64,000 nucleotides of DNA, taken from NCBI RefSeq assembly GCF_002234675.1, contig NC_019875.2, positions 22,748,299 through 22,812,298 of the forward strand, given 5' to 3'. The stretch is from Oryzias latipes. Lineage: Eukaryota; Chordata; Actinopteri; Beloniformes; Adrianichthyidae. The notes under the pieces were generated by a model, which saw only the letters and a list, made by a program, of their open reading frames with translations, was not told the origin of the DNA and did not search any database. Below, piece after piece: positions 16,506-57,176 of the stretch; the first letter of the stretch is position 1, and every line of letters begins with the position of its first letter. A program made the translations under genes and the position numbers.

Positions 16506-19500
16506 TTATGTGGGACTGAATCCAGGCGAGGCCGTGTGGGACGCTGTGAGCACACGCTCCGATCCTCCCTGCCTCTCTGCTCCCTGCAGGCCGCCATAAA
16601 GCCTCTCCTCCACCGAAGCCACCAACTTGTCTGTCAGGCTGCTCTCTGATAGGATGGCTTGGCTGCTGTTGTTGTTCCTGTTGTCCACTCTTGGGTCCAT
16701 GATGCCCATTGGCGCAGAAGCAGTGCTGGGAGGTCTCTCTGCGCTCGGGGAGACTCTACAGTCTTCAGTTTTTTTTTGGTCTGATCCTTCCGTTGGTTTT
16801 TTGGTCGTACTCTCTGCTCCATCGCTGGGTCGCTCTTTGCTCTCTGCTCTTTCTATGGCTGCTTCTTCTGAAGCTGCAACCTCGCTGGCTTCCTCGTCTG
16901 CTGCACTCGCTATGCGGGATAGAGTGCTGTGGTATCTGGTGTCCAGGGGGTATCCCGCACTGTCACCCCTCCTCAGTGGGGTGAACCTTTGCCTCTCCAA
17001 AGATGGAGAGTACCTGCCCCCTGAGGCTGAGCCGGGGTCACTGTATTGCTTGTGTCTTTGCCACTGTTTGCGGAGGTGGACTCTGGATCTGTGTCTGGAG
17101 CGTATAGGAGAGTCCTGCTGGTCGAAGCGAGGGTCGTGACGCAGGAACTCGTTAAAAAGAGCGTCTGTCTTCTCGTCGATGCTGTAGTCACGGTGCCTGA
17201 GACGAGCTTGGTGAGGGCTGGAAGGCTGTGGGATCGACTTCATCAGTGGAGACATCAGCTGGGATTCTGAAGGTTTCCGAGGATGGAGGGGATTCAGGAC
17301 TTTATATGGCTCTTGGGGAACGAGGGAGCTCTGCTTGAGCATCTCCTCTCCATCTGCGGTGTTGGCTATCTGGTCCTCCAGCTCCTCCTGAAAGAGTCGA
17401 GCATCTACGCTTTCACACACAGAACCTTTTCTGCCAGAGTTGGTGAAAAACAGCCTCCTCTCGGATGCCGTCTTCCCCCGGGGGGCTCCCGGGGTCCCAA
17501 ACAGGCGCATGTCCTCAGGCGCCCTGGATGGAGCTTCAATGGAGGCGTAGCCGCTGTCCATTTGAAGGAGTTTCCTGTTTCCTCCTTCACTGTCTCCTCC
17601 AGCTCCATTTCCCACCTCACTGTCCACACCCGATGCTCCATCTAGCCCCTCTGCCTCCCCGTCTCCTTCGGGCTCATCATCCAGTTCTTGGGACAAGCAG
17701 CTGTCCAGGCCTGAGCGAGCTCCAGCGCCACCGAACGATGAAACGCTGTCGGCGTCGCTTCGGATGGACTCTCGGTCTGTGCTGCTCTGATCTGAGGAGG
17801 CGTATTGCTCCAGGGAGGCACGCAAACTCCAAATGTCTCTATACAGAGAAGGGGGGGCTTCCAGGCTCGTGAAGGACTCTGTTCTCCGCCTGCCCTCTGC
17901 TCCTAACAGCACCTCATCTCCGTCTTCCGCATTTCCCCCGTTCAATTTCCTCACATCTGCCTCATTGCTGCCTACTTCGGTGTCTTTATTTCCTCCTAGC
18001 TGGTCTTCAAAGCCTTCCTGCAAGACCACATCCGGTTCTGCTCCAAAGAAGTCTTCACCTTCTGCAGGTCTGGGCCCGTCTTCTGCTGCTCCTGTTTCAA
18101 CATCTGCTCCAAACACAGTCTCCTTTTCTGGTTCTGTTCCATTGGCTGTGACCTCTTTATCCATTTGACTCAGAAGCGACGGCATCGGGAGTTCCTCCCT
18201 CCTGGAGGGGCTGGTACCATCTCCAACCTCCACCATGGCCTCCAGCTGGAGCCTGCAGATGAAGAGGGGGGTTAGTCTGGAGTTATCTGACATTAAGAGA
18301 GTCGGGGTGTTATGAGTGGTTTACCTCTTGAGGAAGACTGAGGGTGTGGGAGCTATTGCAGGGTGAGACAAGGACTCTGCAGAGAGGGACTGGAATCCCA
18401 CCGTCTGGATGGGGGTGTGCGGAAAAGACTCGAAGGCGTCGTCACAGAGAGAAGAGTCATCTTCGGTGTGGTCTGTGTTTTCACTCGCTGCCCTTTGTCT
18501 TTGGAAGGGCTTCCTCTTTGGGGACCCTAAAGAAAAAAAATTGACCACCCCAAAATTCAAAATTGTGTTTCAAATTAAAATAATTTGAATATTTGGCAAA
18601 AATTCTAAGTTGTTCTGTCTAATTGTGAGTCAAATTAGTCTAATTGAACAACAGACAGAGACTGAAGTATCTCTTTTTGGAAAATACATCAAATTATTGA
18701 AATTTCTGAAAAAACAAAACAAAACTGTCTGTAGCAATATCCTTTTCTGTTATCAGATTCAAGTTGCTTATCTAATAGAAAAAAACAACATTTGAGTTTT
18801 ATTTTAATAATATTAATAATAATAAATTTTATTTATAAGGCACCTTTCTGGGCACTCAATGGTGACGCACAACATGTTTTCAGTATAAGAAATACAATAA
18901 ACACTTACATTTCCAAAAATACAACCAAATTATATTTTAAAGTCGTCATTTATAAATCAGGGCCTCTACATCAAAGTATTTACAGAATTGTTTTATTTTA
19001 TTTTTATTGGAATTAATTAGTATTTTAACCTCTTGTGACACAAAAACACTTTTGCAGTTTTTTTTTTTTATGGCATATTGAAAGCATATTTTATGATCCA
19101 TTAGGTGATTTGGTAAGTTTTGGTTCACAACAATGTTAGTTTAAGATGCAACAATATTGACATGAAAACACCATATTTACCTACTGTCTCAAATTTGATC
19201 CTCACACATTTTAGCACGGCGTAACTTTATTATAAATAAATATTTCAATTCAGCAAGTAGTCATTTAAAAATGAATTACAATAGACAAGTCTTTTTCCCA
19301 TCTTAAAGTCTTAGAAATTAGCTACATTTTTCCGACCAAAAGAGTTTTTTCAAAATTTAACGAAAGCAGACATTTTGGAACAGCCTTTCTACTGCCCCTA
19401 GTGGAATGAAGATGAACTACAGGGCAGGCAGTTTTTCAGGAAAGTTTGGATCACTCTAATGAGCCAGGAGTCAAAGAAGTACGTGTATCAAATATGACAC

Positions 19501-22500
19501 AAATGCTTGTATAGGGTTATTTAGATCTGAATTTAGACATGTATTTTTGGTGAGATTTGTAATTTCTGTGTATAATCCACACTAACCTTTGGCGTCCAGA
19601 CTGGCTGCCCTATGACTGGTGTCAAACTTCCACCTTCTAAAGTAAGGCCCAGCTCCCTCTAGGCTGGCGTGACGCCGGAGTTTGGAGAAAAAATGCAGAA
19701 CGGAAGTCTGTCCACTGCGGCCCTCAGCCTCCCTTTTGTCCCCGAGAGGCTCCATCTGACAGAAGAGATGAGGAGAGACGAGGATGGATGGAGGAAGCTG
19801 ATGACACATTAAGGGAGAAGACGTGCTGAGATGAATTGTGACGGGCAGAAGCACAAGCCCCCAGGAGACCGCACTTTGTCATGTTGTCATTCAGCCGCAG
19901 TGGTGACGGATGTCAGCGAGCATCAGTACTTTGAGACGATGGCAGCTGATTTTTACCATTTATTTGTTCAGATAAAAAAAATAAAGCTGCACTGGAGAAG
20001 CTGCAGGTTTCTGGTCAAATGACAAAAAATGCTAACCAAAGCTTTTTACATTTACCATACATGATTAGAAACAGAAAAATCCAGAAATCTTCAGGATATT
20101 TGTTGTTTTTGAAAGGATGTTTCTCAAAATCCCTTCTTTAAAATGCTTTTTTTGTGAAATAGTTTCTTTGTGCTTTATTGCTTTTCTCGTACTTTTATTT
20201 TCCCCCTCACGTCTTTGTTGGATTGCATTTTTTGTTTTGTTTTTTTTTGTATTTTTCCATTCGGTTTGTCTACATTTTTCACCTCAAGGCTGCAGCAAGA
20301 ATGAAAGTTTAATGAAAAACGTTTGAGCCAAAACAAGTTTCTGGCGCAGAAACGCAGCCAGCAAGACAAACTGTGAAAATCGCCACGCTGAAATAACCTT
20401 TCTCAGGTTCATGGTCGTTCTTGAAGCTCCACCGTGATGTACTTTGGGGTTTTCAGATAAAATTTCAAAAGTAAATCTTTGGTTCCTTCTCCTGAACATG
20501 TTACAATATACAGTAATACCTTAAAGTCGTCTTATTTTCCACTTTCAGCTTTTTTTGTCTGCTTATACCAGTGACATATTCAGTTTTTCTTTTTTTCATA
20601 TTATGTTGAAATAAGCGTAAAACTTACTGTCTGGGAGTGTGTGTGCTGTGGCTTCATGGCTGATGAGGACTTCCTGCCTCCCTGGTCCAGGATGATGGAG
20701 TGATGTGGATCTCCAGGCAGACCCCCACTCACACTCTGCCCCATCCAGTCACAAACTCTCCTCTCACCAGGCTGATTCAAGGAAAAAATTAGCTCTGGTT
20801 TGAATTCCTGCAAACACCAACCGTGCTCTTTCTCGGGGTGCTCTGCTACCTGGTAGATGGTGAGGGGTAATTTGGACGCTCCACTTTCATTGATGTTGGT
20901 GGAGCTGCTCTCTGTGGATTCACACTCCATGATGGTGAGTATTTTCAGGTCGCATTGCGCTGGAGGCAGGTGAAGGTGGGTCAGCCTGGCCTTTTTAAGG
21001 TGGTGGAAGTCTCCTTCAGTCAGAGTGTACCTTCAGATGGAGATCAACCATCAGGCTTCTGATCTAAAGCTGCATCAGAGATGGTTTGGTTGCAGTGTAC
21101 CTGCGTCCTTTGTCCTGAGTGGTTTTCTCCTGTTCGTAGAGTGCAGATTCATTGAAGGACACTCTGCGGCCGGTGGACCCAGTGAAGACAAATCGCTCTG
21201 ACTCTCCATCATGGCAACTTGATGCTGAGAGAACGTCCGATTCGTCCAGGCGAATAGTGATTTCTGATCGACAAAAAGGCAACAAGGACACCCCAACGTG
21301 GAGTAATTGAGGCTGTGGTGATCCTTGCAGGAATACACGTGTCAATAAAGCCATAAATGAAGAATCGCAGCTGACCTTGAGTGGGCTGAGAATCCTCAGC
21401 ATAGGTGGTGTTTGTCTTCTCCAGGTCATCGCTCGCCCTGAAAAGTAACTTAAATGTCACCTTTTCGCAAACAATAAGGGGCTTTATTTTCCCTTTTCAC
21501 TGTATTTTGAAGGCTCCATCACATTGGTGCCTGTAATCCTGAAGCCAGCACGCACCTGGAGTACCGGCGCCCGCCCAAACAGCAGCGGTGGCAGAAGAGG
21601 AGCAGCAGGGAGAGCAGCACCAGCGTCCCGCCTGCAAACACACTCAGGAGCACCAGCAGCAGAACGTAGTTCTCCACCTGACCAGCCGACACAGGCACGT
21701 CCTGCAAGCATGTACAATCCTATTTTCTGATTTGAAATGATGTGTAACTCCCTGATATTTATACCCTTTTTACCACTTTTTAGCTGTTTTGTGCCACTGC
21801 TATTTAAATGTGTTTTTATTCACTTGTGAGTTAACCTCTTTTACAAACATGGATGAACTCAACTCTTTGCTCTGATTTGTTTTTTTTTTTCTGGAGTCAT
21901 TTTCAGAAAAAACACACACAAACCCATTAAATTTCATGTGAAAAATGAATCCCAACCAAAGAAAATGTGTCCAAAACTGATGGATGCCTCATTAAAAGAC
22001 ATCCTTTCGTTGATAATGATCAGCTGCATCACTGCAAGCATCAGCCTCATCAGTCAAAGCCTAATGTTGACAAGCTGGAGTTCATGACTTCTTCCATCAA
22101 ACAGGCAGACAAATACAAGTTTCTGCTGTCGTGTTTTGCTGCTGTGAGCCTCAGCAGAGTGGAGTAATTGATTCCTGCACTCTCTGACCTTTGCAGCAAT
22201 GCCAGGGCTTTTGGTCGTATTAAACTGGAGCTAATCTTTAATGAGTGGAATTAGCTCTCTTAAGTCGCTGTTTTCTTGCAGTGCTTCTTGATGCGCGCTC
22301 ATATTTTGCTGTCCGCGCGTTCACACACTCTCACGGTTGCTCTCCTCTGATTAAAACTCTCAGTATTGGCTGCGCGAGACTGGATGCTAATCAAAACGTC
22401 AACTAGACCCTTAATTCAATTTCCCAGCTCTTCTCAATGAGAGGGAAATGAGGCCTTTGCAGGCTAAAAATGGAAGTCAGAGGAGGTGGAGGAGGAGTAG

Positions 22501-23531
22501 GAGGAGGAGGAGGAGGATGCCGACACACTTGAGCAATCCCCACATAAGTCTTTCCTGTCTCGTGTCCTGATGTTAGTTTCAAAAGAGAGTAGAAAAATAA
22601 TTGGGTTCTCAGAACCACATATGGGAATATTTATCTGCTGCAGTGTTTAATGTTGTATAACATCTGAAGATGGGAGAGGGTTTCACGATGGAAGTGTTAG
22701 GCAGAGGGGTGAGGAGCCCCCTCAAGGAGCAAAGTGTAACAATGAAAAACAGGAGCTCCAACAGAACCAGAACTGTCGGAGCAGAACTTCATTTTTATTA
22801 TCCCCCAATTTAATTTTTTTTTTAAAAAGGTACAAAGTAAGGATGTCTGTGGACCAACCACAACAAAGCAGCAGATTTCATGGTGACTCTAACTCCAGAG
22901 TCAGTGATTGGAGTTTGTCTGTGATGCTGCCGCCGTGCATCCATCACCCTCCTCCGGCTCCATTCACAAGCAGCAAGTCACTACAAGGAAAGAGGCTGCT
23001 GCACAGAAACTGCTGTCACTACCTCCTTGAAAGAAAAGAAAAAAACACCAGGCTTGTCAGATGCTTTCTTTTTTGCCTCCAACTTGCTGCAGGCCCAAAC
23101 ATGTAAAACCTCAGAAACACTGCAGAACCCTCATGGAAGCCGTCACTCTCTCTGAATCACAGTGTAAAAGTGACCTAACGGCATCTGCTGTGGTCTATAG
23201 ATCAGCCAAATGGAGGCAACAGTCATTGAAGCTCCTGCAAAGACAGCTTCAACCGACCCCCCTCTGCACACAGAGCCAGCTGCACCATCACCACCAAACC
23301 TCCACCTGCAGATCTGCACACTTTCCTAAAACATGCTGTTGTGTCAACACGTGTTTTCTTGTTGTTCCGGTTCTGACTGATTCTGTGAATGGTTTTAGTC
23401 ACCAGACAGCTGACCGCAGCCCTGTGAATGGAGGCGTGGAGAGTACGTGTTGATGCAGCGCTCAGAGACACAGCAACACTCACAGTGGAGCTCTCCGTCA
23501 GACTTGTCAGGACTGGAAGATCATTGCTCAT
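16506..23531 (-). CDS. cbarp: CBARP (BARP), voltage-gated calcium channel beta-subunit-associated regulatory protein
   Basis: Single-pass membrane protein that binds CaV-beta subunits and lowers surface calcium-channel activity in neurons and secretory cells. Exons in transcript order: 23531-23484, 21701-21556, 21437-21376, 21263-21101, 21030-20850, 20771-20628, 19755-19587, 18526-18325, 18252-16506. The total is 2862 bp, 953 aa, longer than human (about 705). Visible: short N-terminal ectodomain, membrane span about residues 28-52 (NYVLLLVLLSVFAGGTLVLL) followed by CHRCC, then conserved cytosolic blocks TGRRVSFNE, GRRYTLTEGDFHHLK, RRHASLEGAGPYF, RAASLDAKG, SLRASLEQYA, LLQMDSGYASIE and DYSIDEKTDALFNEFLRHDP. 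ATG at 23531 has A at -3; the same exon is open upstream, so a longer N terminus is possible. The large acidic last exon explains much of the extra length. Confidence 0.95.
18815..18905. repeat. SINE/RTE-type 3' tail fragment
   Basis: aataataaattttatttataaggcacctttctggg followed by cactcaatgg resembles the conserved 3' tail of widespread fish SINE/RTE repeats (tttatttataaagcgccttt). It is in a cbarp intron. The family name is uncertain. Confidence 0.45.
20772..20849 (-). other. cbarp: 78-nt in-frame mini-intron of cbarp
   Basis: Between ATCTACCAG|gtagca and ttgaatcag|CCTGGTGAG. Removal gives LTIYQPGERRV, which aligns with human LAIFQPPGKALTG as I recall it. The segment is 26 codons with no stop, so retention would simply insert 26 residues. 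Both readings keep frame; homology favours splicing. Confidence 0.65.
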
Positions 23532-25186
23532 GGTCCAGGTCAGTGTGAGTGAGCCCTGCAGAGAACAGGGAGGCACAGTCAGAGAGGTGTGTCATCAGTG
23601 ATCCTGGCCTTTTTATGACTAGAAAAAACATCAAAATGATGGGAATGAGACGAAATTTGATCTGTTAACAAATCCAATAAAAAGACCAGAAAATCTGGGC
23701 TGAACTTCTTTTCTGTCACAAAATTGTAAACATATTCATCCTTTTAAACAAATAACTCTAAAAGTGTTTTAGTGTAATTGTTTTAATACTTTTCTTTTTT
23801 TTTAGTTTGATATAAATATTATTTTATTTTATTTTTTTACACATGAAGCATGCCATGTTACACTATCGGCTAATGTTTACATTTCAATGAAATAAAGAAC
23901 ATTTGTGTAAAAAAAATTCAACCTTTTGTTCCATAACTAATCTTTCTCCATCCATCCAATTAATTGATCTGTTGCTCACTTATTTAGACTAGAATTTTAA
24001 CAGTATAACTTTAAAATAATAATTTTGACCAAAAATTGTTTTGAATTTTTATTTTCCTTTGGTTTGATCGATTAAAATGAGTAAAAAATGACTGATAATA
24101 CATTGAAAATGTTTATCTTTTTCTTCCATTTAACTTGTTTTATTCTAAAATATGAATGGAACACTAGCAAACTTTTAGCGTGCAACGTGAAATCTCTTTT
24201 GACAGGTTGCTGGTTGAATTCCACTGCCTTCAAATGTCTGTGACGAAAACAGTTTCCATTGCACCTGCCGTGATACAAATGTGAGTCTTCTCCTTCTGTG
24301 GGGTGACCACCGTGATGTGCAGCTTGTGCGACGTCAGGCCGCTCTGCTCTCACATGCGGATTCCACACACTCTCACTCCAAGAGTCATCTTTATATAAGG
24401 GTTCAGGAAAACCTCCAGCCATGAGAGAAATGAAGCTTCAAATGGCAAGACAGTGCAGAGACTGTTTGCTGTGACAGCTTGTTTTACTGTCATGAGTGTG
24501 CCAACGTTTCTGTCTCTTTTGGTCACGCAGACAGAGCAACCAGAATTCTAAAATATTTGTTGCAGTTCTCTAAGCATCACTCAAGTTGGAGGTTTTTTTT
24601 AATTGAGTTTGTTTTTATTATTCCTGTTTTATTTTCTGAAAAACTTGCCATAAAAATATACTAATACTTATGCCTTTCAGCTCTGATGGCAGACTTTTGA
24701 GGGTTAAAAAGTCTTTAATCATGTGAGATCCAGATGTTTTTTTTGACCCGCTGATGCTGCCTCCATCTTTGCAAATACCTTGTTAAAAGGAGCGGGGCAG
24801 GGGGATTACAGCATGTCACCCTGACGTGTGAGAGGATGACGATGATGAAGTGCACCAGATGCGCGCGGTAGTTCTCGGTGTGTGCTGGATGTGCTTCCCC
24901 CCGCTTTGAGCGGAGTGACTACAGCGATGCGCTGCAGCCGGCGGCGCTCAGCATCAGCATCAGCACCAGCAGCATCCTCCTCTGGTCACTGAAGACATTC
25001 CAAGCAGGGCTGCCCCAGGGCTCCGCGCGCGCCTGCCGGAGATAATCACATGTACCGGACATATGGAAGCTGAAGTCATCCCTCAAACACATCCCAGACC
25101 ACAGTCGGCTGGGCAGCTTACATAATAAAATAGTGGCTCTGTAAATCCACGCGCGGAGGTCAGGGGAAGTCAGAAAAGAGACTCAC

Positions 25187-25300
25187 CCGGTGGTGGAGTC
25201 GGTTTGAGGCGGTCCGCAGGCAGCCTTCCCCGTCTGCATACTTCAATTTGGGCTTCAAATAGAGTGTAGTTATGAATGAAAGCGCACACGATTGGACACA
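25187..25300 (-). promoter_or_regulatory. cbarp: probable cbarp first (untranslated) exon and promoter region
   Basis: A strong donor (CCACCGG|gtgagtct on the minus strand, exon edge at 25187) follows a GC-richer stretch about 1.65 kb upstream of the coding ATG. No start codon here is in frame with the next coding exon, so it would be 5' UTR. The GC- and CpG-rich zone extends over roughly 24.8-25.5 kb. Confidence 0.5.
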
Positions 25301-25529
25301 CCCACCGCCCGTTCCTGCTGCGCCATGTGACCACTGTCTTTTTTTTTTCGTGCGCGTGTGAGGATGCGAGCTGGAGGAAAAAGCCCCGCTGTAGTTAAAA
25401 ATGCGTCCTCACACCAAAACATATTCATTTATGCTGCAATCAGGAAGTGTTCGAGTCCGAATATTTATTCCAAAACAAATTATGCACAGACACGCGCGCG
25501 GGGGATAGTTATTGTAGTATTGATCCTTA

Positions 25530-25544
25530 CCACTAGGGGGCAAC
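25530..25544 (+). promoter_or_regulatory. CTCF-like motif
   Basis: CCACTAGGGGGCAAC matches 13 of the 14 positions of the CTCF core consensus CCASYAGRKGGCRS. It lies between the divergent cbarp and midnolin genes, where an insulator would make sense. This is sequence match only. Confidence 0.35.
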
Positions 25545-26074
25545 AATGCACTGCTGCTGTTCATGTGGTTTTGCATGCAGGTTCTGCTTTCTGCGTCCAT
25601 TTAGGTCCATTTTATTCGATTTCAGTCAAATGAATTTAAAGCATAACTGTAAATAGATGATTAATCAATTATTGAAAATTGTTAAAGTGATTGATTTCTA
25701 TTTATATTACTTCACTTGCTCCAAAAATTGAAAAAAATAACTCATGACACATAACATAATTTTGCACATATTTTAACTTTTGATACTTGATCAAATTTGG
25801 CAAAGAAAATTTTTGAAATACTGTTATGTTTATTTTACTGACATAGTATTATTTTTATTAATCATATACATGACTTTTATAAGTAACATACTCTGCGTAT
25901 ATTTTGGATAAATGATCTGCATTTGCCATGTTGATTTCTAAAAGTTATTTTACCATAATAATTTAAGTAATTCTTCTTTGTCATGTGCTTTATTGATACT
26001 TCAGGATTCTTAATTCTGTCTGATAAAAGCTAGGAACCGGATAATGATAAATCATGTCATAAAATGGTTACGGC

Positions 26075-26260
26075 ATAACAGGGAGGGATTATATAAGTTT
26101 GCTTCCTTCCACTCCCTTTCAAGCAATATTATTAATATGTCTTATTATTCTAAGTTTGATTCATCATTGTATGAATGAGTAACTGATGATGGTATTGTTG
26201 TTGTGTATTATTCTTATTTGATTGCTTGAAATAAACCATTTCAAATCAAGTCAAATATAT
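26075..26260 (+). repeat. LINE 3'-end fragment (L1-like tail)
   Basis: gggagggattatataagtttgcttccttcc followed by a T-rich part and ttgcttgaaataaaccattTCAAATCAA resembles the 3' end of fish L1-type elements as I recall them. The rest of 25.6-29.3 kb is AT-rich with no recognisable gene. Confidence 0.45.
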
Positions 26261-29200
26261 CACGTGCGTGTCTCACTGTTTGCCCTCAATTACGACTAAT
26301 AAACTACCCTTCAACACCCCTTCAATAAACATTAACACACTAATGTGATATCCAACACTCTGGGGTCTAGTTAACATCTTTTGTACTTTACTGTCACCAT
26401 TTTTTGCTCATTATTTTCACAGAAATCAATAAACCAAATGAACTAAACTTTCAAGCTCTGACTCTATTTTGTGAGAGGCAGAAAATCTAGACAACACCTG
26501 CGACAAATCCAGACAAAAAGATGCTTGTAAACAATATATTTTATTTCTCTTTCCTGTAAATGAAATGTATTTTTTCGGCATTATGTAGATCTTCTATGGG
26601 GTTATTTTAAAGCGTTTTTGATCTTCCAACAGCCTTATTGTAAATGTCTGCACCTCACATTTGGATAGAATCTGCTACTACAGGCCATCGTTTGATTTTT
26701 AGTAGGTTTGTGTCCAGGAGCAACAGATTTTCACGTGAACGTTAAGGATGCTTGGCACACGCATGATCAAAAACCTTTGGAGGAGTGAAAATATTCATTC
26801 CAGAAACAGTCACAGGACACCCAAATGGTAGAAGTTTGATGATGAGGAAAAAAAGTGGGGTGGTAGGCGTTTTTTAATCATAATGTCACCCTGAGTCTAA
26901 AGATGTTCCTTCACAATTTTGAGCCAGGTATTGATGTTTTTAGACATAACAGAATATAAATGTTTAACCTCCCTAGTAACAGTAAGATTATGTGTGCAAA
27001 GGAGTAAAAAATAAGTGCAATAGCACGTCTCTCTTGACCTTTAACGCTCTGTATGCGGCCGGGCTACAGGAGGGGAGGGCAATCTTTAAAACTGGTCTTA
27101 AGTCTTTTTCCAACAATCCCAGAAATCCTCAGACTCACAGGAGGGTCTTGAGGAGAATGAGTCATCATTTTCACGCAGACTCTGGCTCTGATGTCATCTA
27201 TGTGGGATCTTGATGACAGAAACTGATAATAGATGGAAATCATCGTTGCAGAGGTGCACATTAGAACATTTTTTTTGTGAAACCACAGGATCAGACTTGT
27301 GCGAGTAAAATTTTAAATTTCAGTTCAGATGAAAATAACAAAGCTGTTTTTTTTTAGTTTTTTTTTTTACATTCTTTGTAAACATTAGACAACGCATCTT
27401 TTGTGTCATGAGATCTCAGGTCCATGCTCATTTGTCCTGAAATTTCTCAGGATGCTGAGGTGAGACATACCACAGGATCTGGAAAATGATGCAAGACGAT
27501 GCTGAGCAGGGGCAGGAGGACTACGGGGAAGATGGGGTAGTGCAGTGTTTGTGTGTTGCTGGGCTGTTGACGTCAGAGCTGCGTCGGTGCACAGTCTGAA
27601 AAGTACATCCTGTCGAATTGTTCACACGGAGGCTCGAAGAAGCCTGAACTGTCTCGCTCATCTCAGCAAAAAGCCAGAGTGACAGAAAGAGAGGAGACAG
27701 AAGCTGAGGGGGAGGAAATCACACCAACTTCACGTTTGAAGAGGGAAGACTGAGGAATTCCTTGGTGATTCCAGGGAAGATTAGCCAAAAAATGTACATT
27801 TTAAGGGGTTCAGTTGGGATTTACTTGTGTTTATGTGATCAAGGACAGATTTAAGTTGTCTCTTATGTGGGTTTTGAAACAGCTTTGAAAAGGAGAGATG
27901 GAGGTAGTTTTTACACACTGCAGGTGTTTTTAAAATGGAGGAGACTCGAGCTGACGACGCTGTCTGCATTTAGAAGTGACCTGAATGAAGGCGTGGAATG
28001 ATGCATAAGGGACGGTGGTGACACGGGGAACAAAGCAGGGGGGAGATGGTGGTGCAGCTATTTTTAGCTATTGTGAGGAGGCCCTTCGACTACTTCCTAC
28101 GTCACATTTTTACTCCAGGTCGTTTCTCTTCATGACAGGCGCAGCCCCGGATACTGCTGTGCAACGGAGGGTTGAGATGAATACCAAACAGCCAAAGCTG
28201 TGAGGGACTGCAGAGGAGTGGGTGTTTTCTATGAGCATCTCCTCCCACAGACTCCTGAACAAAGTCAGTGATTCATGTGAGCGCATGCAATGTGTTCCCC
28301 TGTTGTGACTAAAATACATGCTGGAGCAGAACTCTGAAACTGACATTTATTTAGAACAAAAGCTAAAAATATGTTTTCTTGTTTTTTTAAATGAAGCGCC
28401 TTAAAATCATGTTTAGAAGTTTATGGAGACTCCCCACTTTACAAATTGTATGTGTGTTTTTCATAAAGACTGTGAAAATGTGAGGATGTTTCCTAACCTT
28501 GTATGTCCAAAATGTAGCTAGGTAATTTACACATTTTTTCAATTTAATTTTGCTGTTTTGTTTTTGCTGAATTTGCAAAACACGACAAAATGATAATAGT
28601 AATATGCATATAATATAATAATAATAACGTTTTTCAATCCTTGCATTGCAAAAGCAAAGATTTTATGTGGGGGTGGTTTTAAAAATACATTTAAATCAAT
28701 ATTTTAATTTCAATTCCTTAGATTGACAAAGGATTTTTCCGTCAAAGCAATTCATTGTTTTTCTGCTAATAATTTTTATTGCTGGAAATCTTACTTTCCA
28801 GCAGTAAAAGTTCCATAAATTTTCAGTTTGGATCATAAAGCAATGTGAAAACTGTTTTTATGACGAAACAATAACCTTTTATTTAAAAAGACAGTGAGAA
28901 ATAAATTTACTCTAAGTAAGATCCCATAAAATCAATGAATTTGTGGCTCAAGCTGAACTAGTTCAGACATTATACTGTGCGTTTTGAACATTTAAAGGGA
29001 AATGTATTTATAAAAATGTTTTTCATTACCTACTAAATAAATGTTTTCTGTATAGGACTAACAACATAACCATGTAATTTTATACTTTAAAAAACAGTGA
29101 TTTGTTCTTCAGTTTTCATTATTTAGATCCTATTTTAGGAAGTTAGAAAGATTTTATACTTTAGCAAGAAATCTAACTTCATCATATATCTTTCTGTATT

Positions 29201-29369
29201 TTTTTTTTTAGTAAAAGTTTAATTTTAAACATCATAAAAGGACATCCAAAAAACAGCAATCTGCGTTGAGGTGAGCATAGCACAAACCGGGGTGGAGTCA
29301 AGTTAGTGTGAGATGGGAGGGTTGGAGTTTATGATTGGACGAGCGAGACCCAGTTTTTGGTGTGGCTTT

Positions 29370-30031
29370 TGCTGATTGGCTGATCACGCCTGCGTGGGCG
29401 GGGCTTCCTCCTTGACTTTACTACGCTGGTGGAGCTTCTGCTAAAGACGGACCGTAAATGTTTTCTGCATCCTTTGTTTGGTTTCTTGGAGGTTAACACG
29501 GCGGATGAGGCGGAGCAGAGTCGAAGAATAAAACAGAAAAACAATCCCAGCAGCTAGAATAAGTTTTTTTTTAACCGATAAGAGCCACAAGTCCAGGACA
29601 GAAGCAGCATCGGACCCCCTCGCTTCTTCACCTCCTTCCCCCTCCTCCTCCTCCTCCTGTGAGAATCCGATACGGTTGTTCATTACCCCGACAGCCAGCA
29701 GCTCTGATTATCCCCCCCACCCCACCCAAAGAGAGACTGTGGAGGACACGCATCCACGAACACGAATCCCACTCATGCATAGAGACAGACAGGCAAGTGC
29801 TTTCCTGCTGCTGCATGTTTGCACGGAGCGCCGCGCGAGGCTCCTATTTTTGTGAATGGATGGAGTCCTCAGGTGTATCAGTGAGGGTTCAAGACACCTG
29901 AGCGGAGGGACACTGTTCAAACGGAATCTCAGAAATCCTAGCATTCATCATCACAGCTGATTTAGCCGTGGAAAGGCGCGTGCACATCTACAAACTCTAC
30001 TCAGACTTGAACTGTTTTGATTGTGTTGCAG
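29370..30031 (+). promoter_or_regulatory. midnolin promoter and 5' UTR region
   Basis: GC-richer stretch with an inverted CCAAT box (gattggct near 29374), a GC box (gggcggggc near 29398) and a (TCC)n tract near 29640. An acceptor at the end of tgattgtgttgcag (to 30031) leads into the coding exon, so at least one untranslated exon lies in this interval. No ubiquitin-like-domain coding sequence was found here in any frame. Confidence 0.5.
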
Positions 30032-30058
30032 AGCTCATCAGACTGAGAGGACACCAAC

Positions 30059-33000
30059 ATGGATGCACTGGAGAGTTTATCAGACACACAGGTAAGTGCT
30101 TTACTCTACTTCATGTTTATTTTTCTAGATGTTCTCTTCGGTGACTCATTAAACGAGTCACATTGATGATCTCAAGCAAACCTGCGCACAACAAATTATG
30201 TCATCTGTGGAAACAAGGAAGTGAGCACTGCCAGTAACGCATGGATTCACCTCTACACAACATACCTTACTAATTTACTAGTAATAGCTATTACTACTAC
30301 TAGTAGTAGTAGTAATAGCTGTTTATATTTTTATGTTCCACAGTAAGATTTCTATTAAAGATCCACTCCGGGAAAATTCTTTTTGGTTTTTTTTAACATG
30401 TTCTTGTGGCATTTTTCCAAAAATTGATGACATATTTAAAGAAAGTGAGGCCTTAAATAGAATTTCTGAGTATTTCATTACTCAAATCATCAGGAGCAGA
30501 GGAAAAAGTAACACTTGCCATCTACAGAAGTTACAATCAAAGGGACTCAAGCACATCCACTTGCAGACAAATAGATCCATGTAGGTCTTTGTTTTCCTCC
30601 TCTGAGCTGACATTAGGGCTCAAAACTGGATAGCTCCAATATTCATCACCACTTTTGTTGCACCGGTAATGTTAGGTTGGGGGTGTGAGGGGCTGTAAGC
30701 TAGCGGGAGAGTGCATAAACAAAGGGATGATGGGAAAGGGGAGCAGGCTTACTCCCCGCCCACAAGCCAGAGGCAAATTTCAGATGACCTACTGACGCTC
30801 TGCAGAAACTGTGTCCTAGAAAACAACGCTGATTTTTCGATTTAACAACGGCACAATCAAAATACCACTGGGAACGCTTTTACAATAGATGAAAAGATGA
30901 TCGGAGTGGGTCTTCAAATGTTTCTGTGATTAATATCCATTATTGACAGCCCCTCTTTGATATCAATGTGAACATAAAGATTAGTAAAAATGCACTTCTC
31001 TTCTTTGGCTGATTGTTTAACAGATGGAGGACTTCCTTTCTGGACGCTCCTCCCTGACCCTCACGCTTGGACTTGGTGCCCACACCATGCATGTGCAGCT
31101 GCAGCTGTCTGCGCAGGATGTGAAGAAGCTGCAGCAGGACAGGGATTCAAAGCCGCTGTGTGGCTCTGAACTCAAAACTGACGCTCCGACATCTGACAGC
31201 GCCCATTCCTCCTTTAGAGGATCCAGTACCTCACAGACTTCCTCTCCAGCTCTGCTCCAGACTGACCTCACATCCTCTGTCCAGAGTACTCAGAGACTCA
31301 AGCGTACCGTGAACCCAACAAATCGAGTTCCACCTGGGAACCTTTGTGGTCCCTCATCTGAGGTTCAGTCCCACTCTGCGCCCTCGCTACCTTCAGCGTT
31401 TCCATTTGCCAGCTGTCCGGCTGGAAATGCTCCAGTCTGCTCTGCTGGACACGGCGGCTCGGACCCGAGGCCTCAGAGCCCGAGACCAGCCTCCACGGTG
31501 TCAGAGGTCAGCCATAGATAGAGCCATCAACACGCCATACAAAAGCATGATCAAATGTTATGTTTGAGTTGCAGTGTGATTCGAAAATAAGCATTTGTTG
31601 TTTTTGTTGCAGGTGGGTGTTAATGGGATGGAGTCTCAGCCGTCAGGGGCAGTCATAGAAAGCTTGGTGAATGATTGTCCAGGTGTCGTCTCTGGGACTT
31701 TTTCAGGTCAGTGGAGGAGACCGCGCCCCTTCTGGTATATGTAACCCATAAAATCAACTAAATAAAGACTGTAAAGACAAGAGTACAACACAAGTTTGCA
31801 ATTATCATGCCACTTTTTATTAGAATGAAACGCATTTAGTAGAAATCTCATCAGCAATTTTTGTCTTCCATCAGGGACTCTGTCGTCTTGCAGTCAGAGT
31901 CATCCTCGACGTGGCGTCGCCATCATTCTTCAAATCCTCAACGATCTCCTCATAGCAGCCCACCGACACCAGAGGGCTCTAACTCCTCCTTTTCCTCCCA
32001 GCTCTGCGGTCGGCCAACTCACCACAGAGGAGGCCCGCAAGAAAAGAAGGAGGCTGCCGACAAAGAAGAGAGTGTGTCACCATGGTAAAAACAGAAACCG
32101 AGGCAGTCCTGCTGGTTTACTGTGTAACTTTAATGTGTAACTGTTCACCTTCAGTCGGTGCTCCGAGATTCAGACAGGGAAGTGAAGCTGATCTCACGTG
32201 AGCAGAAAAATGTGATCGCTCCGGTTTTTCTGTTCACAAGAAAACAAAACCTGCTCTGATTACTTCATTAAAAAGAGATGGGGACTGCAATGAGAGGCCT
32301 AACTGATGTCATTCAGTGTTTTTGTTAGACTTGTGTGATCTAATCATCATGAATTTCCTTTCTTGTGATGCTGAATTAGTTGAAAATATTTATTGAGACA
32401 TACAATTAGCTGTTCTGTGGCATATTTTTCCCATTTTCCAACTAATTCAATGCATTTTAACATGAAATCATTAGCTTTTTTTTACAACTATAAACCTTTA
32501 CTAGATTTTTTAAAGGCTTATAGTCGTATTTTTGACTCAACTTCTATGAGCCCTGCAGAAGCCTGGTCTTAAAACTTTACATTTGATTTGTTTTAACCTT
32601 TGTTAAACAATGTACCAGTCGTTGAGAACCAGTTCTTGTTTACAGTGACAAACTGGATCTGTTTACGTGAAAAAGGCATCCGTGGGCCGCAAAACAAGTA
32701 AAACCTGCAGAACATGAGAGGTTCAGAACAGGGAAACACTGCTGTTAAATGAAATTTCACATGAAGTAAGCAAAGTGTTCTTAACTTTAGGCTGCAATGT
32801 TAATGAACATGTGGAGCCAAAAATATCAAATCAAGCATTAAGACATGCACAGGCACATGCAAAAAAGGTAATTTTACCTATATTTGTTGTGCATAAACTA
32901 CATGTGTTCTCCTGGCTTTGTTCTTTAATACACTCTTTCTCTCAATTCATCCTCAAGTGAAGCAAAGTTTAAATGTTTTATTCCCAAGCACTTTATCAGA

Positions 33001-33249
33001 TAAATTGATTATAAAATAATTAAAAATGTCTGATTTTAAATTTTTTGCTTGTCTAACAGGTTATTTTCTGTCTTCTATGCAGGCGATGAAAGCCGACCGC
33101 TTAACTCTGTAGCAGAAGAAAACCAAACCATGCATTGTAAGCTAGAACGCCTCCAGCTTTTGATGCGACAGAGGCGTCTTCGCAGAAGAACTCGCCAGAA
33201 CTCTCATCTCAACCAAACTACTTGTTGGTATCAGCATCAGCGCTCCTAA
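30059..33249 (+). CDS. midn: midnolin lacking the ubiquitin-like domain
   Basis: Midnolin delivers nuclear proteins, including immediate-early transcription factors, to the proteasome without ubiquitination. Coding exons: 30059-30091, 31024-31506, 31613-31706, 31875-32084, 33083-33249; 987 bp, 328 aa (human about 468). Residues 1-45 (MDALESLSDTQMEDFLSGRS then LTLTLGLGAHTMHVQLQL) match the first Catch segment. Residues about 185-232 (GAVIESLVNDCPGVVSGTFS, then IILQILNDLL) match the second. Residues 291-311 (HCKLERLQLLMRQRRLRRRT) match the C-terminal helix. Absent are the N-terminal ubiquitin-like domain and the long acidic tail. The first ATG has an in-frame TGA (30043-30045) 15 nt upstream in the same exon, so the short N terminus is not a missed start. 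It is probably a diverged teleost paralogue; the orthologue name is uncertain. Confidence 0.88.
30286..30320. repeat. perfect 17-bp-arm palindrome in midnolin intron 1
   Basis: AGCTATTACTACTACTA, one central G, then its exact inverted complement TAGTAGTAGTAATAGCT. It is built from TAC/TAG triplets. Confidence 0.95.
30355..30918 (+). mobile_element. TTAA-flanked MITE, family A, copy 2 (full length)
   Basis: Starts TTAAAGATCCACTCC and ends GGAGTGGGTCTTCAA; the ends are inverted copies of AAGAYCCACTCC and the right TTAA has decayed to TCAA. It is about 560 bp with no ORF for a transposase. It shares ordered blocks with copies at 11.6, 54.8 and 58.3 kb, such as acttgcagacaaatagatcc and gatagctccaatatt. 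It lies in midnolin intron 1. Confidence 0.8.
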
Positions 33250-33288: not shown

Positions 33289-33294
33289 AAATAA
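33289..33294 (+). terminator. midn: midnolin polyadenylation signal
   Basis: AATAAA 40 bp after the stop codon, which implies a very short 3' UTR. Confidence 0.6.
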
Positions 33295-33842
33295 AGAGGT
33301 CATTTAGTGTCGCACATTTCTGTCTCTGGTCCAATAGTTCCCAATGTGTGTCTTTGTTTGTAACCCAGGCTGGAAATATATTTAAAAAACACTGAACTGA
33401 GACTTAAATTTAGGCCTTAAATATGTTTGATGCATTGGAAATAATCTAGAAAATGTTTTTTATACACTGTCATCTCAGTAAAACTACAACTGTTGTGTCT
33501 TTGTGGGTTTGTAGTAAAGCCTTAGAGTTGTTGTAGTCTGGTTCCTCTGAAATAATGTTTTCTCAAAGGTCATAGTATTAGTTGTCCTTGAGTCTACACA
33601 AATCTTAACGTTTACAACTGTGTCTGAAAAAAGAAAACTTTTGTGTTTATGCATTTTTTTATGCTATTGCCTTAAATGTTTCTGTTTTCATGTACACTAT
33701 GGGTTTTCTCTGGGTATCCCTTTAAAATGATATAAACATTCAAAAGGTAGGCAAATAATGAATAAAAATAAAAGAAAACTGGAACTTTTTATGTCTTTTT
33801 TTTCCACTGGAGGAAGAAACAAAATGAAGGCCTGTCTGTTTA

Positions 33843-35674: not shown

Positions 35675-36329
35675 GTAATCGCAGTCTTTTTTTAAACTGT
35701 GTTGAAATGGTGAAATATGGTGCTTATGTTTGCTTTAAAGAGCAAGTGACCTAAATGTTTTTCTTCGCAATCTAACTTGTCTTAGGAAAATCATAATTTT
35801 TAAATTTAGGATTTTCAATCTTAAAATGCGTAAAAAACTAACTATATTTTGCAGTAATTGTATGAGTAATAGTAGGTTAAACTGTCGTTGACCTAATTTT
35901 CTCAAAGTGGGGCACTTATGTAACCTTGAAAAGAGGCTTTGCGGACTCGTGGCGAAGTAGGTCATTGAACAAAGAAGACGAGCTCGACGCCACAAAATGG
36001 CGCTGGGTGAAAAAATTAAATCCTTCGCAGCACCATCTATTTGTACCGTTTCGTTGTGTTTAAGGTGCATATAGCCAATATTAATTGTGAGTAATGTATT
36101 ATGGTATGTTTTCATAAAAACAACTTAAATTTTAAGTTAAATTTAAGGCGGTCCAGCTTTGGCGCTAAAGTGCGCAACGTGCGGTCGCCATTTTGAGTCG
36201 TCTCGCTGACCTACTTTCACAATGCCCCACCCTAGTAACCCTTAATGCTCGATGTTTCCTTTCATTTATTCATGTATTCTTTTTTTAATAATCGATTTGG
36301 TTTCTCTTTATATGCAGCTATCCCTTAAA

Positions 36330-39273
36330 ATGTCGGACGAAGGCAAACTTTTTATTGGAGGTCTGAGCTTCGAGACCAACGAAGACTCTCTTGCCGCCGC
36401 TTTTGGCAAATATGGAACCATCGAAAAAGGTAAACATTTGACGGTGCTTTAAAATTTGTATAAACACTAGTGTCGTTATTTTTTTTTTACAATTTTTTTT
36501 TTTGGTCTTTTCAGTCGATGTGATCAGAGACAAAGAGACCGGAAGATCACGTGGTTTCGGCTTTGTGAAGTACGACAATGTTGAAGATGCTAAAGATGCG
36601 CTGGACGCAATGAACGGAAAGGTATGTTGTCGATTATTTATTTCTTGCTTAAGAAGTTTTGTTTTAAAAATAAAATTAAAATTTCATGCATTTTGTTCCC
36701 CAGACGCTTGATGGCCGGGCGATCCGAGTGGACGAAGCAGGGAAGGGAGGTCGCGCCAGAGGAGGATTTTCATCAGGCCCGCGCGGTGGACGCTTCAGCG
36801 GATCAAGGGGTAGGGGCGGCCGTGGTTTCTCCAGGGGTGAGAACTGCTGAAGAATAAAAACCTCGCTCCACTTTAAATTTGGTGCGGTAAACCCTATTTT
36901 AATCCGTTGTTTCTTTCATGTTTATAGGTGGCTACAACAGCGACAGAGGCTACGGAGACAGAAGTTATGGCGACAGGAGCTTTGGAGGCGGAGACAGGAG
37001 CTTTGGTGGAAGCGGTGGCGGATTCAGAAGTGGTGGATACTCATCCAGCGGCTACAGAGACAATAGGTAAGTTTAATCATTTTTTATTGTTGAATGATCG
37101 CATAATGAGGTGAATTAATAATTTTTATCATTCATATAGGGGGCAGGGAGGATATGGTGACCGATCTGGGTCTTACAGGGACGGCTATGACAGCTATGGT
37201 AAGCATTGAGCTTTAATCACACTTTGGGGCTAAAAGACTATAATCATTAGGATTGTAGCGTTTTTAGGAACAAGTTTAATGCCTAGTCATAAATGCAGCT
37301 CGTGATGGGGTGTCCTCAACCTTTAGTTGGTACAACTTGATCTCGAATCTGCCCCTTGTTGCAAAAAAAGACCTCAATCCCTCTCATATTACGAATTTCC
37401 GAACTTTGCACAAGAGGATGGAGGAGAAAACGAAATAATGCTGCCACCTCTAAAGTTGCCTTGTCCTATGACGGTGCCTCTTTGACAGAATAAAGGGAGG
37501 GTTAGTATACTACCTGGTGGGATGAAGAATGTAATGAAACTCCAGTGTCGGAACTTTCAGTGTCTTCACCTTTTTGCCCACTTCTGCTCCCCCAGCTTCA
37601 CACGAGTAAACACCTCCTTGAATCAAGACCATCACTTGGCTGGCTGTTTTTGAAAGATGCTCTCCTCAAGAAAATTGTCCATGTATTTTGCTGACCTGTT
37701 TTGTAGTTCGCCACCTTAAGTGTAGTTGTTAATTTGCTCCTCAAAACCTGTTACAACAGTTAACGAGTCTTGCCTGGCTCAATTTGACAACTTCCTACAG
37801 CTTTGATTCGATCTGTCCTTGGTAGAGCACAGAGCCATTCTCAATTTGGGAGCTTCTGATAGCTCAGCGACAGCTTTGCTGTAGACCTTTTTTGTCTGAC
37901 ACTTTACATGTGTTCTAATATAATTTTCAATTTTTATTATAAAGTATAATGGGGCATAGTTTTCCTTGGTCAATCATCTACCTCCTTAAGAGTTTTAAAT
38001 TGAGTAAGGAAAAAGCTTAAATAGTTTTGGGGTTTATGGATGAAGTCCTTTTCCTATTGAGAGAACCTTCATTCAGCCAAGGCTCCTTTCTGTTCCATTT
38101 CCCAAAAGAGTGAATGCCTTTGACTGGTGAACTACACATCCGAAGTGGCCGGCTGTTCATGAAGTTGCACAATGCAGCATGCTACAGTCTGTCCAAGGTA
38201 TCTTCTGTGCTCTCTGCTCAACGTCTGCATTATAAATGTGCTGTAAAATGGACTGTTTAAAGTGATTCAAAATGTAATTTCGTTTACCCAAAAGTTTAGT
38301 CTAAAGCGGGAACAGTTTTGTACTTTTTGTTCTTTGTATGATACAAGAATATTTTTTTTTGTCAGTTTGGCTTCATGGAGCCTATTAAACGAAACATGGA
38401 AAATGATCCTGATTCTGCCTGTTGAAAGTGATCACGTGGGAGTCAGATGGGAAGAAATTGAGATGGAAGTAAAAGATCAGCTGAAATCAAAATTGAGTTA
38501 AAATGCATTACAGTTGCAGTCGAGTGATATGTGACTTTTGCATTTTTAAATCAAATTTTTGTGCTAGATAGCTTTTTACCCAATGCACTCTGAAGTCAAG
38601 TCAGCCATGTTTGAACAGTGTCTTGGTCAACCTTCCAGTTAAGGGAAGTGCCAAACGGCACAAGGAATGGTACAATGCCTGTCATGTCAATGCTCCATTA
38701 CGTTCCAAGAACTCAGCCTCCTCAATAACCAACAAGTCCTTGAAGAGTGAAGCGTTGCGCCTACCAAGTGCTCATCCGATGAAAGCTGCTCTTGCCTAGC
38801 TCAAATGTGAAGAAAGTAGGCCAATGCACGTGAGGTAAAAATCTCCTTTTGCTTTGCTCACATCCTTCAAACTCAGTTCTCATTGTTTCCATGAATGCCT
38901 TCCAAGTTAGCCGCTGTGTAACATCCTCTGCTTCAGATGTCTTACAAACATTCCAAGCCTCTGCTCTGATTCAGATTACCATAAGTGGAGGGAAGGTCTC
39001 TAAAGCTCCTCTGGATTGTATCGCCCCACCTACAGTCTACAAAAGAGCATTTTTGCCTCCTTAACCATGGGTAGCATTGTTCTCAGTCAACTTCTGATCA
39101 CTGCATTACTCCTCAAATTTGCTCCGATAATGCCCCTCAGCTGTCCTGATGTTACATATACTGCACTCAAGTGTCTTGTTGGATGTATGTTTTAATAGTA
39201 TTGCATGCTGTCAACTGAATCTTCTGTTCTGATGTGCTTGGTCTAATGCAGTTTTCTTTCTCTAGTGACTTGA
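36330..39273 (+). CDS. cirbp: CIRBP, cold-inducible RNA-binding protein
   Basis: Stress- and cold-induced glycine-rich RNA-binding protein that stabilises and regulates mRNAs and shuttles between nucleus and stress granules. Coding exons: 36330-36429, 36515-36621, 36704-36836, 36928-37066, 37140-37198, 39266-39273; 546 bp, 181 aa (human 172). RRM occupies about residues 6-84, with RNP2 LFIGGL at 7-12 and RNP1 RGFGFVKY at 46-53. An RGG/GYG-rich tail follows from residue 86 ([32 protein letters not shown]). The spliced C terminus is YDSYVT, comparable to human YDSYATHNE. If the last intron is not removed, translation would end YDSYGKH at a TGA at 37207-37209. The gene directly follows midnolin on the same strand, as in mammals. 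Which teleost cirbp paralogue it is cannot be settled here. Confidence 0.95.
37199..39265 (+). other. cirbp: long last intron of cirbp (2.07 kb), candidate for regulated retention
   Basis: Much longer than the other cirbp introns (69-100 bp between coding exons). It begins with a stop shortly after the donor and ends ttctctag|TGACTTGA. No transposon is recognised, and its base composition is less AT-rich than typical introns here. It could hold alternative 3' exons, since mammalian CIRBP 3' exon use changes with temperature, but I identified none. Confidence 0.4.
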
Positions 39274-40371: not shown

Positions 40372-41643
40372 AAAATTATATAAAATAAGATATTCCTGTA
40401 TTAGTCCCACGATGAAGAAATTTCCTTTTTGCTGCAGCAGTACAGGTACAATATGCACACATGTATATTTCCAAAAATTGCACAGGATGACCATATAATC
40501 AGTTATTGCACAGGGTAAAAGAAATATGACAGAGATGATGATGTTGGTTAACGTGGTTCACTGGGAGCAGCTAATGTTGTACAGTCTAACAGGTAGAAAC
40601 GACCTGCTGTGTTGCTCCTTCAGACACTTAAGATGTATCAGTCTGACGCTGAAGGAGCTGCACAGTGAGGACACAGAATCATACATGGGTTGGGCGTTGT
40701 TCTCCATCATAGATGATAGCTTAGCTACCATCCTCCTCTCTCCAATCTCTCGTATTGAGTCCAAAGGCAGCCCCAGAACGGAGCTGGGCTTCTTCACCAG
40801 CCTCTCCAGCCGCCAAGATGCTGCTACACAAGCAGACCGCTCCATAAAAATGGCTGATGCCACCACAGAGTCATAAAAAGTCTTAATGAGAAATCCCTGC
40901 ACTCCTAAAGACCTCAATCTCCTCAATAGATAAAGTCTGCTCTGTCCTTTTTTGTACAGTGCTTCTGTATTGTGTGACCAGTCCAGTTTATTCTTGAGGT
41001 GAACACCCAAGTACTTGTACGAATCTACTCTCTCAATGTCCCTTCCTTGGATGTTCTTCGGCGCTAATGTAGAGTGTGGATCCCTGCGAAAATCTACCAC
41101 CACCCCCTTGGTTTTCCCTGCATTGATCTGGAGGTAGTTTCGCTGAAACCAGTCCACAAAGTTCTGAATCAGTTCTCTATACTCTTTGTCATTGTCATCC
41201 ATGATTAGTCCGACAGCAGCAGAGTCATCCGAGAACTTCTGCAGGTGACAAGATGCTGAGCTGAACATTAAGTCTGCGGTGTAGATAGTGAACAGGAACC
41301 GAGCCAGAACTGTTCCCTGCGGTGCTCCTGTGTTACATACGATCATGTCAGACTGACAGTGGCCTGACCTCACATACTGCCGTCGGTTTGAGGGGTAGTC
41401 CAGCATCCATGCAGACAGATGCTGGTCCACGCCCCATGTGCACCAACTTGTCCCTCAGCAGCGCTGAAGAAGTCGAAACACGACTCTCACAGTGCTCCCA
41501 GTCTGGTCCAGGTGTGACAGAGCTCTGTCCAGGAGGAAGATGACAGCATCCTCAACTCTGATACCGGGCCGGTAAGCGAACTGCAGCGGGTCCACTGACT
41601 GGCTGACCATGGGACGAAGATGTGTGAGCACCAGCCTGTCCAT
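40372..41643 (-). pseudogene. 5'-truncated non-LTR retrotransposon (L2/CR1-like) reverse transcriptase, frameshifted
   Basis: On the minus strand, 41643-41455 encodes an RT segment (SQSVDPLQFAYRPG, VEDAVIFLLDRALSHLDQTG) and 41430-40558 continues it in another frame with GAPQGTVLARFLF and the catalytic FSDDSAAVG box, then thumb and C-terminal sequence (YKYLGVHLKNKLDW, LRRLRSLGV). The two parts are out of frame with each other, the endonuclease domain is missing, and the element ends in a 3' UTR near 40372. It is therefore dead. Clade assignment is by general resemblance to fish L2/Rex-type elements. Confidence 0.85.
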
Positions 41644-41731
41644 TTATTTAATATTCAAAAAATGTATCTGTAAAGCTCCACATAAAATAATACAGTAGAA
41701 GCCTTAACTGATCCTGAGTTACTCAGTCTTT

Positions 41732-41934
41732 TTAACCCTTGTGCTATCTTAGATGACCCCACCCTTACAATGACGTGTTCTCCCTACCATGACAAAGGTG
41801 GAAAGATTTCATGTAATTCATGGACACCAGTGAACATCACAAATCATTGAAGAAAAAAGGTTCAGAGCACTGTCTATTGGGTCTAGATGACCCAACTCCC
41901 AATGTTAAAGTGCCTAGGATAGCACAAGGGTTAC
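41732..41934. mobile_element. piggyBac-type MITE
   Basis: TTAA followed by CCCTTGTGCTATC at the left; the right end is the inverted GATAGCACAAGGG followed by TTAC (decayed TTAA). It is about 195 bp between TTAA sites. Internal ggtctagatgacccaact also resembles the left-side tagatgacccca. This is typical of short piggyBac-derived elements of fish. It lies just beyond the ndufa13 3' end. Confidence 0.85.
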
Positions 41935-41992
41935 AGAAGAAGAAGAAAAAAAAAAAAGAGAGAAGCTGAGATGGGGTACGGAAAAAAGATAC

Positions 41993-41998
41993 TTTATT
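41993..41998 (-). terminator. ndufa13: ndufa13 polyadenylation signal
   Basis: AATAAA on the minus strand, 91 bp past the ndufa13 stop codon, which gives a compact 3' UTR typical of this gene. Confidence 0.7.
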
Positions 41999-42088
41999 AT
42001 TGAACATTTACAAGCTGAAGGAAAATACAGGTCCACGTGCTCTTGGCTGTGGAGAGTGGTGGAAACGAGGACACGCTCCTTCTGGTGA

Positions 42089-47384: not shown

Positions 47385-57176
<9,792 letters not shown>

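Follow-up and report, generated by a model that had tools for sequence, protein, structure and literature searches.

A UBL-less midnolin paralogue of Oryzias latipes and its full-length partner on C4

The locus and the gene model

The window (here the whole 64,000-nucleotide stretch of Oryzias latipes DNA that was analysed, NC_019875.2, positions 22,748,299 to 22,812,298) contains no N letters and carries, at 30059-33249 on the + strand, a midnolin gene without a ubiquitin-like (UBL) domain. The surrounding genes are mostly assigned by appearance. Positions 1317-1712 presumably belong to stk11, with a kinase match below the Pfam cut-off; the reading frame at 16506-18320, which has no Pfam family, is taken to be cbarp; 36246-36452 (Pfam RRM) is presumably cirbp; and we take 48323-48829 (Pfam GATA) to be part of a GATAD2-like GATA-finger gene. 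The mammalian midnolin gene adjoins cbarp and cirbp. On the - strand, a 298-aa open frame (40558-41454) looks like a retrotransposon fragment, with a match to the reverse transcriptase family RVT_1 (36.7 bits, cut-off 29.6) and a 40-residue match to ALKBH8_N (27 bits, cut-off 21), and a repeat at 41686-42007 has several close copies within contig C4 (2016736-2033665). Of immediate-early promoter motifs, there are three CArG boxes (CCWWWWWWGG) in the window, none of them within 18 kb of the midnolin gene, and two CREs, one of them near the gene at 27568; 13 of 100 shuffles reach this CRE count.

The five coding exons are separated by GT/AG introns and, when joined, give 328 codons with no internal stop, while the alternative frames contain 10 and 11 stops. 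Exon 1 (30059-30091) encodes MDALESLSDTQ, the start of Catch1, and its ATG lies in the context ACCAACATGG. The rest of Catch1 and a variable linker come from exon 2 (31024-31506), and Catch2 is divided between exon 3 (31613-31706) and exon 4 (31875-32084), the latter also coding for linker. Exon 5 (33083-33249) encodes the C-terminal helix with its basic run and ends in the stop codon, without an acidic tail. On a home-made scale, two donors of the four coding introns are weak (6.0 at 31507 and 5.4 at 32085) and the other two reach 12.6 and 8.5. A candidate poly(A) signal, AATAAA (33290-33295), is found 41 nt past the stop.

Upstream of the ATG, the first coding exon extends to its best acceptor at 30031/30032 (5.2 on the same home-made score) and includes an in-frame TGA (30044-30046) that prevents read-in from upstream. 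The acceptors between this TGA and the ATG are very poor, with scores of -9.5 and -8.2 against 5.2. The segment 30032-30058 is homologous to part of exon 3 of the midnolin gene on C4 (see below) and is now untranslated, reading SSSD-stop-EDTN where the C4 gene has SQASRPEQSV. The least certain part of the gene model is a putative non-coding 5' exon at 29440-29792, the start of which is guessed; it ends at a GC donor (cag/gcaagt, 29793) that scores 6.0, nearly equalled by a GT donor at 29873 (5.8), again on the home-made scale. If the GC donor is used, a predicted upstream frame of 10 codons (MHRDRQSSSD; 29775-29792 plus 30032-30046) ends at the TGA, 12 nt before the main ATG. Further upstream ATGs occur at 29458 and 29505, so that with the GC donor, and if the 5' exon starts early enough, there are three short upstream frames in all, and these might influence translation of the window midnolin. 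The first intron apparently holds a repeat insertion, since 30485-30929 resembles several stretches of C4 (near 1.972-1.973, 2.008 and 2.017 Mb).

Parts kept and parts lost

An earlier note, made from the letters of this DNA alone, had described a midnolin that keeps both Catch halves and the C-terminal helix but has no UBL, with a TGA 15 nt before the ATG in the same exon and no acidic tail. This description stands. The 328-residue product aligns to human midnolin 118-412, contains no Pfam family, and is not preceded by a UBL in a shuffle-controlled search (see below); the TGA is in the exon that begins at the acceptor at 30031/30032. The acidic C-terminal tail of the human and C4 proteins is missing, the frame ending at 33249, 14 residues past the end of the helix alignment.

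A phmmer search against solved structures returned 26 sequences, of which 21 are midnolin, the top match being an EGR1-MIDN chain (E 1.1e-25); five antibody heavy chains among the matches (E 0.0047-0.06) are regarded as noise. On the EGR1-MIDN chain, window residues 1-45 correspond to Catch1 and 180-242 to Catch2. Longer midnolin chains match up to residue 314; in the 468-residue chain, residues 1-44 of the window protein pair with 118-161 and residues 105-314 with 193-412.

Catch1 (human 112-156) is present, with 27 of 40 residues identical over 118-157, positions 112-117 preceding the start codon. So is Catch2 (human 266-332), with identity at 37 of the 59 gap-free positions; gaps removed 8 of the 67 human positions. 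The C-terminal helix with its Rpn1 contacts is likewise recognisable by sequence (19/37 identical to human). Among the residues that PMC12888917 gives as important for Rpn1 binding, E384, N385 and L395 are identical, V392 is replaced by L, and L399 by M, as it also is in the C4 copy, so that each is either retained or conservatively replaced. The basic nuclear localisation run in the helix, KRLRRKARR in human, reads RRLRRRTRQ, with Q for one arginine. Given this substitution and the 19 of 37 identities, proteasome binding may be weaker. Hydrophobic character is kept at 37 of the 41 human hydrophobic positions in the Catch and helix segments. By descent the gene belongs to midnolin, while for want of the UBL it is not a full midnolin; hence the name used here, UBL-less midnolin paralogue.

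A full-length partner on C4

The same genome has a complete midnolin gene on C4 (1994040-2013433). Its seven exons (1994040-1994260, 1995038-1995125, 1995293-1995355, 2004331-2004861, 2005564-2005687, 2006113-2006433 and 2013171-2013433) encode a protein of 536 aa that has the UBL, the Catch halves, the helix and the acidic tail, and the N-terminus passes the Pfam ubiquitin cut-off (30.7 vs 25.4 bits). When the genome was searched with the window protein, eight matches were listed. Four are its own exons and three are on C4 (2005612, 2006094 and 2013170); the eighth, on C18 (E 0.005, two stops), is regarded as a low-complexity chance match.

The window coding exons correspond one to one to C4 exons 3-7, and all four shared introns have the same position and phase (0, 0, 1, 1). 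C4 exon 3 is 63 nt long and codes SQASRPEQSVMQALESLTEIQ, while its window counterpart (30032-30091) is 60 nt long and in the same frame reads SSSD-stop-EDTNMDALESLSDTQ. Former linker codons, with an in-frame TGA among them, have thus become 5' untranslated. The start codon is likely the old internal methionine at the start of Catch1, which lies in a good initiation context.

The neighbours of the window gene also have relatives on C4. For the 604-aa frame at 16506-18320, the one other genome match at E <= 0.001 is on C4 at 7.08 Mb; for the GATA-finger exon, the best other match is at C4 2.196 Mb, ~0.18 Mb from C4 midnolin, with a weaker one on C11. Both of the window neighbours that were searched thus have a C4 match. 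Midnolin and these two neighbours all have C4 relatives, an arrangement that fits a pair of chromosomes duplicated when the teleost genome doubled. When frames of the window were compared with C4 1960001-2050000, the matches besides midnolin looked like repeats by eye. The two midnolin genes of this fish probably arose in that event, which is dated to some 250-350 million years before the present (PMC1890551).

The missing UBL

No UBL-coding sequence could be found upstream of the window gene. Human UBL gave a best score of 19.6 bits against 22001-31000, where the best scores of 50 mononucleotide shuffles averaged 17.8 and reached at most 22.3. C4 exons 1 and 2, which code for the UBL in this fish, were searched as peptides against 25001-31030; they gave 17.7 and 13.9 bits, with means of 17.4 and 14.9 in 60 shuffles, and so leave no trace there. 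The C4 exon 3 peptide scored 18.5 bits in the same interval, above its shuffles (mean 13.7, maximum 16.9). One candidate for a UBL remnant, 29733-29801 (ETVEDTH...LMHRDRQAS, 18.9 bits to human UBL), was rejected as chance: the score is inside the shuffle range, the segment is not among the matches listed when the UBL exon of this fish is the query, and its donor would have phase 0, against phase 2 at the end of C4 exon 1.

Genome-wide, the first 124 residues of C4 midnolin gave eight listed matches, comprising three C4 exons and five matches at E >= 0.44, none of them in the window. Among the matches listed, one midnolin UBL is thus found in the assembly, and the window gene does not adjoin it. 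The genome search scores no more than the best candidates, so a very diverged further midnolin copy or UBL exon could be missed; the search with the window protein, for example, did not list the C4 Catch1 exon. The Pfam PF00240 list (34 matches) was also used. At 26 of its loci (8 + 18 stretches), a search with human midnolin gave three matches, to the low-complexity linker or its neighbourhood, with no UBL and no Catch; a pair on C9 near 12.99 Mb is outside these 26 loci. The C4 UBL, divided between two exons, is missing from the list, which is therefore insufficient as a test, and the genome search is the better one.

These results bear out the remaining claims of the earlier note, that UBL-coding sequence is absent upstream, and that a full-length midnolin might exist elsewhere, with the window copy as a diverged duplicate. 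The arrangement which it had set against its own reading, in-frame splicing of a UBL exon onto the exon at 31024, finds no support, as UBL exons are on C4 only among the genome matches listed.

Unequal rates and constraint

A core alignment of 136 gap-free codons was made from Catch1 (118-157), Catch2 (266-332, with 8 of 67 positions dropped for gaps) and the helix (377-413). Human and C4 midnolin are identical at 130 of these positions, while the window protein is identical to human at 83 and to the C4 protein at 83. Lineage-unique changes number 49 in the window copy and 2 in the C4 copy (chi2 43, p 5e-11). The aligned sequences point to a strongly unequal rate, the window copy having evolved much faster than the C4 copy.

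Between the window and C4 cores, dN is 0.31-0.33 and dS 1.6-3.0 by three methods, giving a dN/dS of about 0.1-0.2, a rough value because dS approaches saturation (identity at 12 of 40 shared fourfold sites); it is pairwise rather than branch-specific, and comes from one fish genome. In a simulation of neutral drift, the window frame stayed free of stops in 12 of 2000 copies at 0.2 substitutions per site and in 413 of 2000 at 0.05, and the latter figure makes the open frame compatible with a recent loss of function. By its sequence, the frame that encodes both Catch halves and the C-terminal helix has stayed open and is still constrained.

A proposed role for the UBL-less copy

Published experiments have assigned separate roles to the parts of midnolin. 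A helix-MBP fusion binds proteasomes and Catch alone binds substrates; human midnolin with its UBL mutated or deleted still binds EGR1 and the proteasome, but degradation of IRF4 and FosB is abolished by either change, and the level of human midnolin rises upon UBL mutation (PMC10617673). Cryo-EM places the helix on RPN1, the UBL on RPN11, and Catch above the ATPase entry (PMC12888917).

By analogy with these results, and with about as much doubt as conviction, we favour the view that the window product is a stable, proteasome-tethered substrate holder that competes with full-length midnolin. From the sequences, both UBL exons and the acidic tail have gone from the window copy, while the C4 partner kept the full protein. 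The product would enter the nucleus and bind midnolin substrates via Catch and the proteasome (Rpn1) via the helix, and as it could not dock on Rpn11, its substrates would not be committed to degradation. The product itself would be stable, outlasting the full-length protein. Because it would bind both substrates and the Rpn1 site without Rpn11 docking, it would compete with full-length midnolin for each, and the destruction of immediate-early proteins would be slowed or buffered.

Helix tethering might also suffice for the copy to hand substrates to the proteasome without a UBL, more slowly or by another route, a reading that we consider unlikely. The Rpn1-contact residues are mostly kept, and mice whose midnolin is reduced to two UBL-less isoforms are born, though at less than the expected ratio, which the authors take to mean that function without the UBL is enough for life; the same report has proteasome stimulation severely reduced in delta-UBL and delta-C-term midnolin (PMC11022886), and the abolition of IRF4 and FosB degradation in the human protein likewise speaks against delivery without the UBL (PMC10617673). 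As such mice are born, the UBL-less form may keep a positive function, rather than being a pure antagonist.

A duplicate under relaxed constraint, becoming a pseudogene and without a present role, would be expected to look in part like this gene, which has strongly accelerated, has lost two parts and has two weak donors. Its frame is open, its splice sites are canonical GT/AG, its start codon has a good context and a candidate poly(A) signal follows; together with a dN well under dS and the 37 of 41 hydrophobic positions kept, this makes such decay improbable. Overexpressed Catch is also reported, for viral proteins and in cell lines of pig and human, to recruit MARCH8 and Tollip (PMC12172420), so that a Catch without UBL might work as an autophagy adaptor; that source describes an overexpression system with viral substrates and the window copy retains the proteasome helix, and we regard this as very improbable. 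That the 5' end is wrong, with a diverged or distant UBL exon spliced onto the window gene, is hardly credible: the acceptor of the 30032 exon makes an upstream exon probable, the human-UBL match at 29733-29801 (ETVED...LMHRDRQ) exists at its 18.9 bits, and a very diverged UBL exon could escape a search that scores best candidates, but that match is within shuffle range and is not listed for the fish's own UBL exon, the TGA closes the frame with only very poor acceptors after it, and the UBL exons are on C4 only among the genome matches listed.

If the window product is the competing substrate holder favoured above, the pair may have divided midnolin function after duplication, with a degrader on C4 and, on C17, a gene dedicated to antagonism or substrate holding without a UBL, a natural dominant negative setting the persistence of immediate-early transcription factors; possibly, each of the two genes took over one of the ancestral isoforms, full-length or UBL-less. 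We offer this broader scheme tentatively, and think it rather doubtful.

The subject touches a live question, as the UBL is dispensable for substrate and proteasome binding and yet required for degradation (PMC10617673). A vertebrate gene apparently kept under selection without the UBL would separate tethering from commitment in nature, and in animals amenable to knockout. It is also a warning on synteny-based naming: the copy adjoining the cbarp- and cirbp-like genes is the stripped one, and the full-length copy is elsewhere.

Comparison with known midnolins

Full-length midnolin (human MIDN and the C4 copy) and the window copy are alike in having Catch1, Catch2, the C-terminal helix and most Rpn1-contact residues, and differ in that the window copy is without the UBL and the acidic tail. 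A transcription-factor duplicate pair is said to have divided ancestral 5'-exon isoforms between its copies, a parallel from another kind of gene. A UBL-less midnolin is not new as such, since the mouse has two UBL-less Midn isoforms of 401 and 358 aa (PMC11022886). In the titles and abstract openings of the midnolin literature surveyed, a survey that is no proof of absence in print, no UBL-less midnolin paralogue is reported; what seems new is a gene committed to the UBL-less form beside a full-length partner. The mouse isoforms are, like the window copy, natural midnolin products without UBL, but as reported they are made alongside the full protein by one gene, and presumably have the tail, whereas the window gene seems to be UBL-less only. 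Laboratory delta-UBL midnolin (residues 31-105 removed; PMC10617673) likewise has Catch and helix without the UBL but, unlike the window copy, is an engineered human sequence that retains the N-terminal leader and the tail.
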